Below are positions 20,849 through 23,327 of a DNA stretch of 44,366 bases, one piece after another. Position 1 is the stretch's first letter. Each line of letters opens with the position of its first letter. This DNA comes from Bdellovibrionales bacterium. Its GTDB lineage: Bacteria; Bdellovibrionota; Bdellovibrionia; Bdellovibrionales; UBA1609. Under the pieces are notes generated by a model. That model searched no databases and was not told where the DNA came from. It saw only the letters and a program-made list of their open reading frames with translations. Location of the stretch: the NCBI GenBank assembly GCA_020630675.1, contig JAHDIR010000022.1, forward strand, positions 1 through 44,366. The letters run 5' to 3'. A program made the translations under genes and the position numbers.

Positions 20849-20862
20849 AAATCTTAACAAAA

Positions 20863-20919
20863 TTTCTATTTCTATTTCTATTTCTATTTCTATTTCTATT
20901 TCTATTTCTATTTCTATTT
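20863..20919 (+). repeat. Hexanucleotide microsatellite (TTTCTA)9
   Basis: Nine perfect head-to-tail copies of TTTCTA run from 20863 to 20916, with a partial TTT after. It starts 15 bases after the M16 peptidase stop codon and is pure pyrimidine except for one A per unit. Such arrays change length by slipped-strand mispairing. Confidence 0.97.
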
Positions 20920-21012: not shown

Positions 21013-21029
21013 AGTGCCAAATTGGCACT
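21013..21029 (+). promoter_or_regulatory. Dyad AGTGCCA-AAT-TGGCACT, candidate regulator site
   Basis: Perfect 7-bp arms with a 3-base centre lie seven bases upstream of a -35-like TTGCCT. Relative to a start near 21070 the centre is at about -49, a common activator position. Confidence 0.45.
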
Positions 21030-21145: not shown

Positions 21146-22609
21146 ATGATCAAACTTGCATTACTTTTGTTGATATCTACTTCATTATTTTCCCAAATGA
21201 CAATGGGCCAGTCGGCAGAAAAAAATTACTTTAATAAACTAGATAATTGTATTCGAACTTCAGATTTAAAAAATATCTCTGGTCACTTCACTCAATTTTC
21301 TCAATTAGTCAGAACAACTAAGTCTGAGCTTTGCGAAAGTGATTTAGGCGAAGATACCCTGCAAATTGCAAGGTCAGTTTTAGCCATGCAACGTATTGAT
21401 GTTGAACCTATTGAAAGAGATGAAGCTGATGATTTCACTCGTCGAGCCATTCAAGAAAAAGATTGGTGGGTCTACTTCAAGCAAAGAGCCAGTAAGTTTT
21501 CTGTTCCAAAAAATTGTCGCCCTGGTGTTGTTGCTTATGTTATAGGTGGGCCTTTTTCTGACGGAACTATTTATCTTTGTCGCCCTTATTTCGAAATGGA
21601 TGTTCCTGGCCAAATTGAAGTTCTTATGCACGAGGTTCGTCATTTTGATGGTCATCGTCATGTAACTTGTTCGAGAGGAGCTGCTAAAGGAAGATCTGGT
21701 GCTTGTGATGAAACTATTGTCAGTAAGGGCTCTTATGCCATCAGTGTTCAAGCCGGAGTAGAACTATCTTTTAATAAACAATTAACCTCTGCTCAACGGG
21801 CGGTGAGTGAAGCCGGAGCCATCTTTCTAATGGTTAATCGCTTCAATAAAGTACCAAAAGTAAAAGCTCAAACTAACGTTTTACTGAGTAACTCTTTGGG
21901 TGAAATTTGGAAAGGTGAGACCGAAAATGGAGCACTGACTGATTTAAGTTTAGTTGGTGAGCTAGATCAGCCCTCTAGAATTTATAGCAATGGATCGGCT
22001 TTGACTGTTTTTCCATTAAATTTGGAAGGTGATGCATATCGTGTTTCTAATGATTTAACAGGTCGCATATCTGCTATAGGATCTTTCGCTAGTAAGTATA
22101 ACTCTGAGTCTATTCCTGAAAGAGCTAAATATAAATCATTTTCATACTCTGGAACGGGTCTAATTGCTAAAGGAAAAGAAATTATTTCTACTTGCAACCC
22201 AGATTCTGAGTTAAATGCGGTGGTGTTTACTCCCGAAAAAATTAGTTCACTAATTACATTTGAAACCAGTCCTTTTAATATATCGACGAGCGTACTCGGC
22301 GAGTCGGGCAGTATATATGTCGTCGATTGTGACAGCTCAAAAGGACAGATCACTATAAAAAAACTAAAAACTAAAATGCCAAGTTTTATTACCGATAGTT
22401 TCACTGTTGATGGCATTCAATATGCTTTAACTGACACAGGTATTTTAGCCTACTTAGATTTTACACTCAGCCCATCAGAGCCAAAGCTGATTCCAGTTTT
22501 TGAAAAACAGCCAGGAGTGGTTTGGGTGAGTGCAGCTACAGTCAGTACATTTGATATTTTTGAAAGAGAAAAAGAATTAGAGCTAGCTAATGTTTTAGCG
22601 GGACTTTAA
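21146..22609 (+). CDS. Secreted putative metallopeptidase with HExxHxxGxxH motif
   Basis: The 487-residue protein has a signal peptide (about 1-22). H162-E163-V-R-H166-F-D-G169-H-R-H172 fits the metzincin zinc consensus HExxHxxGxxH at every fixed position, in the helix QIEVLMHEVRHFDGHRHVTC. Cys175 and Cys187 flank a short Gly/Arg loop and may form a disulfide. A Met-turn, expected in true metzincins, is not seen: the following SKGSYAISVQAGVELSF has no Met. The rest (about 230-487) is beta-rich and unassigned, perhaps a propeller or sandwich. Zinc binding is likely; peptidase activity is inference. A G8 tract lies four bases before ATG. The next gene, 38 bases downstream, is His-rich. Confidence 0.75.
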   Translation: MIKLALLLLISTSLFSQMTMGQSAEKNYFNKLDNCIRTSDLKNISGHFTQFSQLVRTTKSELCESDLGEDTLQIARSVLAMQRIDVEPIERDEADDFTRRAIQEKDWWVYFKQRASKFSVPKNCRPGVVAYVIGGPFSDGTIYLCRPYFEMDVPGQIEVLMHEVRHFDGHRHVTCSRGAAKGRSGACDETIVSKGSYAISVQAGVELSFNKQLTSAQRAVSEAGAIFLMVNRFNKVPKVKAQTNVLLSNSLGEIWKGETENGALTDLSLVGELDQPSRIYSNGSALTVFPLNLEGDAYRVSNDLTGRISAIGSFASKYNSESIPERAKYKSFSYSGTGLIAKGKEIISTCNPDSELNAVVFTPEKISSLITFETSPFNISTSVLGESGSIYVVDCDSSKGQITIKKLKTKMPSFITDSFTVDGIQYALTDTGILAYLDFTLSPSEPKLIPVFEKQPGVVWVSAATVSTFDIFEREKELELANVLAGL

Positions 22610-22646
22610 TAAGTAGAAAATTTATTGAAAAAGAGGGGGAGAACAA

Positions 22647-23327
22647 GTGCGTAAAAATATTATATTTCTATTGATTTTATCGGCAGCTTCTCTTCTTTTA
22701 TTTTTTCATGACTTCAAAACTCCCACTGAGTCTATTTTTCATGAAGCGCATTTAAAAACTCAGCACAAAGGTCTTTTTAAAAAAACAAATTTAACTAAAG
22801 ACGTTATTGTTGAGAAGGAAGAGCCAACCGAGCTTCATGATGACCATTCTCATGAACATCAAGCCAGCTCTTCTTTTAAGAAAAAATCAAAGAGCCAAGT
22901 TTTGAGTGCTAATGATAAAAATGAGAAAGAGCCTTTATCTGATTGGTTACAAAATTCTTCTCGTTCGGTTGAAAGCCGTGTAGCTAAAATGACTGGCCTT
23001 GAAAATAATCAGAGGATTCGCCAAAATATAGTTCAACTTGTTGTCTCTGAAAACCCGCATAAACATAAAGATATATCTCCTCACACTCACGGTGAGTACC
23101 TATATAAACAAGAAGCTGCACTAAGGGTTCATGGCATGCGGTGGTTGGCAAATAAGGTCAGCAATGACATTGAATTTAACACTAGCTTTAAAAATATTAT
23201 TGAAAACTCAAGTGACGAAACGATTCGTAATATTGCCATGGAAGTTTTAGACTATAAAAAAAGGGGCCGATCTTTTTTTAAAGATTCTATTGCAGCTATT
23301 GCTCAGTCAAAAGTTCCACAAGATTAA
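22647..23327 (+). CDS. His-rich exported or membrane-anchored protein of unknown family
   Basis: The GTG start at 22647 follows AGAGGGGGAGAA. The 226-residue product begins with a hydrophobic segment (about 4-20) that may be an uncleaved anchor or signal peptide. Two His clusters stand out: LHDDHSHEHQ (about 64-73) and NPHKHKDISPHTHGEY (about 137-151), suited to binding zinc, copper or nickel. Between them is a Lys/Ser-rich linker. The C-terminal 75 residues are helical, with DETIRNIAMEVLDY resembling a HEAT-type repeat helix pair. It follows the HExxHxxGxxH gene by 38 bases, so the two probably share an mRNA. I do not recognise the family. Confidence 0.65.
   Translation: MRKNIIFLLILSAASLLLFFHDFKTPTESIFHEAHLKTQHKGLFKKTNLTKDVIVEKEEPTELHDDHSHEHQASSSFKKKSKSQVLSANDKNEKEPLSDWLQNSSRSVESRVAKMTGLENNQRIRQNIVQLVVSENPHKHKDISPHTHGEYLYKQEAALRVHGMRWLANKVSNDIEFNTSFKNIIENSSDETIRNIAMEVLDYKKRGRSFFKDSIAAIAQSKVPQD

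Follow-up and report, generated by a model that had tools for sequence, protein, structure and literature searches.

The gene for the foldase Lif adjoins that of its client lipase. Lif is described as having a membrane helix, an unstructured variable linker and an 11-helix client-binding domain (PMC7046727). In Bdellovibrio, the ankyrin repeat protein Bd3460 is encoded after the exported endopeptidase Bd3459 and, by the published account, inhibits it (PMC4686830). Listeria is reported to encode the secreted metzincin Mtz together with a TIMP-like lipoprotein, Tim (PMC8235301). On the enzyme side, aspzincins are described by the motif HEXXHXXGXXD, in which the Asp is the third zinc ligand (PMC3890501), and fungal peptidyl-Lys enzymes are described as carrying pro-peptides (PMC11985622).

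The locus considered here lies in a window of 44,366 nucleotides from a Bdellovibrionales bacterium (contig JAHDIR010000022.1 of assembly GCA_020630675.1). Two open reading frames on the plus strand form an operon-like pair, as a preliminary description of the sequence had it. Gene A (21146-22609, ATG start) encodes a 487-residue protein predicted to be an exported metallopeptidase with a propeller, and gene B (22647-23327, GTG start) encodes a predicted membrane-anchored partner of 226 residues. The gap between them counts 37 nt rather than the 38 bases given earlier. New here are an enzyme that has diverged from a known family and carries an unusual propeller, and its conserved pairing with the B family. 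A search of the open-access literature found nothing on aspzincins in Bdellovibrio or on a HEAT-repeat protease inhibitor from Bdellovibrio; print outside it may differ. For HEXXH metalloproteases and metallopeptidase propellers in Bdellovibrio it brought up work on RTX proteins, on Leptospira c-di-GMP and on the lipocone superfamily.

The pair resembles each of the described systems in part. As with Bd3459 and Bd3460, which come from the same group of predators, an exported enzyme precedes an exported repeat protein of small size (~23 kDa), but the enzyme is a different one, the repeat fold there is ankyrin, and B would be membrane-anchored and its inhibitory action is a proposal (as far as described in PMC4686830). 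The B model has the membrane helix, unstructured linker and helical domain described for the Lif/LipH foldases, whose client is a lipase; the likeness seen is one of layout (PMC7046727). Mtz and Tim likewise combine a secreted HExxH-type protease with a membrane-linked inhibitor-like protein, but in the account available Tim is a TIMP-like lipoprotein with no helical domain, encoded at a phage-derived locus in a Gram-positive host (PMC8235301).

Upstream of gene A, after a gene for an M16 peptidase, lies a perfect hexamer repeat (ATTTCT, 9.7 copies, 20862-20919), followed by the palindrome AGTGCCAAATTGGCACT (21013-21029), which is terminator-like on both strands. Terminator-like sites are at the level of shuffled sequence (2 vs 1.7 expected), and no RNA element in the window matched Rfam at the gathering score.

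The exported enzyme and its family

The predicted structure of A is confident (mean pLDDT 90.5, pTM 0.86) and shows a mainly helical N-terminal domain followed by a beta domain at about residues 239-468. The protein opens with a signal peptide of about residues 1-24 (21146-21217), recognized from a hydrophobic helix at residues 3-16 in the model, with the cleavage site placed by eye; the model gives A no membrane anchor of its own. The catalytic domain, at about residues 34-235 (21245-21850), begins so soon after the signal peptide that a long pro-region would not fit. The short bacterial aspzincins compared with A have none either, their HExxH lying near residue 160, so its absence from A is weak evidence for a propeptide acting in trans.

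The beta domain (21860-22549) accounts for the beta-rich C-terminal half in the preliminary description and is predicted to be a beta-propeller. Its best match in a fold search is the propeller 1npe_A (Z 13.9, rmsd 3.9, 212 aligned residues), followed by propellers of the LRP/LDLR (YWTD) type, and a count of six blades, borrowed from these matches, is probable. The propeller is probably an extra, binding domain. Metallopeptidases were absent among the 50 matches listed by each of two fold-search programs when the whole of A was the query and propellers filled the lists.

The motif at residues 162-172 (21629-21661) is HEVRHFDGHRH, an exact HExxHxxGxxH that agrees with the metzincin zinc motif at all fixed positions, as first noted. 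In 200,000 shuffles of its residues, A, which has five His in total, never gave this motif. The exact motif is found in 56/59 distinct A homologues of at least 400 aa and is invariant in a 39-row alignment. The looser pattern HExxH..HxxC..C-D/E occurs in 58/59, and the single exception, L099, has an insertion yet retains HExxH, HxxC and CD. In the model, a helix predicted with confidence (residues 153-166) has HExxH at its C-terminal end. The positions invariant in all 39 aligned proteins are C35, C63, H162, E163, R165, H166, G169, H172, C175, G178, C187, D188 and G195. Among these are both cysteines of the Cys-flanked loop remarked on earlier (C175-C187, 21668-21706), here proposed to form a disulfide, and two residues of the stretch from D188 to GSY at 195-197 (21707-21736). 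From this conservation, H162, H166 and H172 are proposed as zinc ligands and E163 as the catalytic residue; H172 is most likely the third ligand, with the invariant D188 as the alternative. Of the alignments used, A3 and A4 omit L063 and L064 as well as some proteins that are only partial, and A6 consists of 27 of the 39 rows of A3.

The catalytic domain is traceable to the aspzincins (M35-related) by sequence comparison. Window A has a single Pfam match, Aspzincin_M35 (PF14521), at E 0.0013 and 19.6 bits, below the cut-off of 30, and no match in NCBIfam. Twelve of 39 A proteins match PF14521 at E<=0.1 (best 5.8e-7), and two homologues, L099 and L101, reach the cut-off. The segment AYV...C...HExxH aligns to the peptidyl-Lys metalloendopeptidase 1g12 (E 0.0045), and in hhalign the A domains match five short bacterial proteins, all above the PF14521 cut-off, over 48 columns (prob 96.3, E 1.6e-9). 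The core around HExxH is thus the homologous part that A has in common with aspzincins such as 1g12. It differs from them at the third ligand, where aspzincins have Asp and A has a His that is probably a ligand, and further along, where A reads HxxC...GACD...GSY and aspzincins read GTxDxxYG. A also differs in its added propeller and its partner gene.

Metzincins have in common with window A and 56/59 of its homologues the exact HExxHxxGxxH, but assignment to that family is not supported. The Met-turn of metzincins, which the preliminary description had been unable to see, has no conserved counterpart: after the motif, window A has Met at positions 229 and 411 only, and no Met other than the start is conserved in the 39-row alignment. 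The second and third His are 6 residues apart in A vs about 10 in the propeller-less form described below, a variation that speaks against a strict metzincin motif, and the homology that can be traced is to aspzincins. An aspzincin-related enzyme with a metzincin-like signature shows that HExxHxxGxxH by itself is an unsafe basis for naming a family. A different kind of HExxHxxGxxH protein (HEMGHVLGLHH) is encoded upstream of A in genome G045 (L002, 3058-4341, minus strand).

The partner and the inheritance of the pair

B is predicted to begin with a membrane helix at residues 3-21 (22653-22709), in agreement with the membrane or secretion segment proposed at the outset. There follow a disordered linker of low pLDDT (22710-22925) and a helical, HEAT-like domain at about residues 94-220 (22926-23306), modeled with seven helices from residue 97 on. 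The positive residues at the N terminus suggest that the C-terminal part would be periplasmic. Homologues of B are only 9-26% identical to it, and by sequence no Pfam model appears to match the family convincingly. Window B has no Pfam match at E<=1 and two weak NCBIfam matches, both far under cut-off. Among 38 B proteins, HEAT_2 matches five weakly (best E 0.024), and no ankyrin family is among the Pfam matches at E<=0.1. No solved fold matched B at E<=0.001. A second fold search returned designed helical repeats, HEAT-like proteins and alphaRep, with Z at most 9.6, and these matches may reflect only a common arrangement.

Homologues of A occur in 17/58 related genomes (E<=0.001) and, in an alignment search at E<=1e-5 that includes weak, short and solo forms, in 153/368 genomes of the phylum. 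Adjacency, defined as lying within 600 bp on the same strand, was counted over the listed A matches as far as E 2.8e-20 (120 rows) and the B matches as far as E 1.6e-9 (90 rows). The best 90 B matches include 79 that adjoin an A, with B first in 43 and A first in 36. Among the best 75 A matches, 64 adjoin a B and 11 do not; past these, 15/45 do, for 79 of the 120 in all. By genome, tallied from the best 75 A and best 90 B rows with related genomes counted singly and uncorrected for kinship, 56 of 368 hold both genes, four A only, 12 B only and 296 neither. Conservation of the pair in other genomes had been named beforehand as a test, with free separation of the genes as the opposite outcome. 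The genes do not separate freely, which bears out the suggestion of a previously undescribed two-gene system, and the pair is usually found in bacteria related to the predator Bdellovibrio. In three loci, B homologues have no A within the 6 kb examined (L106, 2849-3631; L107, 2776-3513; L108, 2675-3385).

In named genomes, a scan located 43 loci, of which 39 are under Bdellovibrio- or Bacteriovorax-type names. The others comprise two unspecific bacterial MAGs (L026 and L043) and two weak matches, in a Gammaproteobacteria MAG (L063, 3470-5263) and an Acidobacteria MAG (L064, 3368-4174). These last two proteins carry HEARHxxGxxH, and no B match was found in the loci examined. The scan rests on one motif pattern with a tblastn check, so a wider spread is possible; the 43 loci came from alignment A1, while the single protein A found no match in the named-genome contigs. 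Plasmids gave no match to A. A search for a third gene in the window and 41 named loci returned, as families common to at least three loci, only an overlapping antisense ORF, generic-looking domains and synteny of close relatives, as judged by eye.

Gene order switches once in the tree built from 45 A proteins. Groups I (n=10) and II (n=8, including the window pair) have the order A-B, and group III (n=27) has B-A; the branch dividing the two orders has a support of 51. The B tree recovers the identical three groups with two changes, the fewest possible, over the 45 pairs. Both trees are quick searches with SH-aLRT support only. For all pairs together the mirror-tree correlation is 0.70; taken separately, groups I, II and III give 0.67, 0.88 and 0.49, and in each case none of 2000 permutations was as high. 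Genomes such as G014, G021 and G228 hold two pairs of opposite gene order, each with its own B, so co-inheritance does not follow from species descent alone.

Simplified forms of the system help to narrow down the target of B. Short A homologues of ~210-250 aa lack the propeller and match the catalytic domain of A over 148 columns (hhalign prob 99.4, E 3.1e-21). At 9/14 sampled loci (13 plus L105), which make up alignment A7, the short gene is followed by a gene for a protein of ~235-263 aa with a membrane helix. This partner family matches B over 120 columns (prob 93.2, E 3e-7), while nine other neighbor families and ten column shuffles used as controls reached at most 1.0. Across the 368 genomes, 40/42 matches to this distant B family lie directly after a short A, and for the other two, the short A of the same genome is on another contig. 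Counted from the enzyme side, over 58 of 66 short-A rows, 18/58 have no such neighbor, these two split-contig cases included. One short form lies in the window's own genome, where a 223-aa propeller-less A overlaps a 239-aa membrane-helix B homologue (L105, contig C35, 925-2299, plus strand). All paired forms have the catalytic domain and B in common. The catalytic domain, rather than the propeller, is therefore the most likely target of B.

The same genome also encodes a solo A paralogue of 632 aa with a longer C-terminal part (L104, contig C85, 465-2363, minus strand). It keeps the motif HEATH, with no B match in the stretch examined. Solo paralogues of this kind (~630 aa) retain HExxH in the absence of B, indicating that B is not universally needed.

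Possible functions of the partner

Our leading interpretation, held tentatively, is that B is a membrane-tethered keeper of A, either an inhibitor or a propeptide acting in trans. It starts from what was computed here, namely the domain anatomy, the catalytic residues, the pairing, the congruent groups and the B homologue beside propeller-less enzymes. We infer from these that A binds zinc and is active, as an exported, aspzincin-related metallopeptidase that has an extra propeller but lacks a long pro-region. The inner membrane would anchor B, whose helical domain would lie in the periplasm and there physically bind the catalytic domain of A. B would hold A inactive, perhaps also aiding its folding, until A is exported, and so spare the cell from its own enzyme. 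The HExxH glutamate is present in 59/59 A homologues, which suggests an active enzyme that would need control. Inhibition of Bd3459 by Bd3460 provides a precedent for a keeper within the same bacterial group. Against a keeper stand the 11/75 best A matches and the 18/58 short A without an adjoining B, as well as the existence of the solo paralogues.

A histidine in B offers a plausible zinc plug. H146 (codon 23082-23084) sits in a loop, within the second His cluster of the preliminary description, and outside group I no other column of B is as conserved. In the 28 rows that remain when group I and L051 are excluded, 27 have His here, the next columns reach 25/28, and the sole exception, L022, has His in a neighboring position. 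In the distant B family (nine members) a single His is invariant, in a loop before the same helix; hhalign sets it five columns off H146, and equivalence of the two does not follow. Group I B proteins are without the H146 loop, which speaks against a keeper (nine rows, with eight gaps and one Ala). In group I A, the residue after GS is His (GSH, 10/10), and in all others it is Tyr (GSY, 35/35). Gain of GSH alongside loss of the loop is a correlated change, but it is suggestive only because it is one event on the tree. In the most specific version of the keeper, a long shot in our estimation, B would be the founding member of a new class of propeptides that act in trans on HExxH peptidases while tethered to the membrane. 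Its loop His, H146, would sit on the active-site zinc of A and be released on export, and in group I the loop would have been lost and GSH gained, as though the residue had passed from the partner to the enzyme.

A somewhat unlikely alternative is that B is a membrane-anchored steric chaperone comparable to Lif, which folds A in the periplasm and releases it for export and is not mainly an inhibitor. Cognate genes adjoin, as a foldase would lead one to expect. The layout of B is also that described for Lif, with a membrane helix, an unstructured variable linker and a helical client-binding domain, but the helical domain of B is much smaller, with seven helices vs 11 (PMC7046727). The solo A paralogues, which apparently manage without B, are a further difficulty for a foldase.

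It is distinctly unlikely that B does no more than tether A to the outer face of the inner membrane, this being the workplace of A. The modeled parts would allow it, as B has a membrane helix and a flexible linker and A has a signal peptide and no predicted anchor of its own. A tether, however, has no need for two genes or for a conserved loop His, and in most such cases the anchor would be expected to be fused to the enzyme.

Supply of zinc to A by B, part of the original proposal for the pair, is very unlikely. The description of B as His-rich holds for the window protein, which has 13 His in 226 residues and two clusters, and two other group II members have His-rich tails or linkers; the conservation of H146 could be added on this side. 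Strong His-richness, defined as four or more His in 12 residues, is nonetheless confined to three of the eight group II proteins, with none among the 37 of groups I and III (n=45), and this speaks against metal supply as a general role. The first cluster (residues 64-71, 22836-22859) moreover falls in the predicted disordered linker. Of the partner roles first suggested, inhibitor and anchor are still among the best readings and general metal supply is not. That A and B are co-expressed only and make no contact is scarcely credible: the mirror-tree signal within groups, being uncorrected, may partly follow species descent, but the pair outlasts both the flip in gene order and the loss or gain of the propeller, no other neighbor family stands out in 42 loci, and genomes with two pairs of different order, such as G014, G021 and G228, keep a separate B for each.

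The A-B pair recurs across a phylum known for predators, and little has been charted of the enzymes that these bacteria secrete or of how they protect themselves. Should B guard or fold A, the pair would join Bd3460 as a further case of self-protection, constructed in a different way. It would also give access to a family of protein-digesting enzymes whose propeller is unusual.
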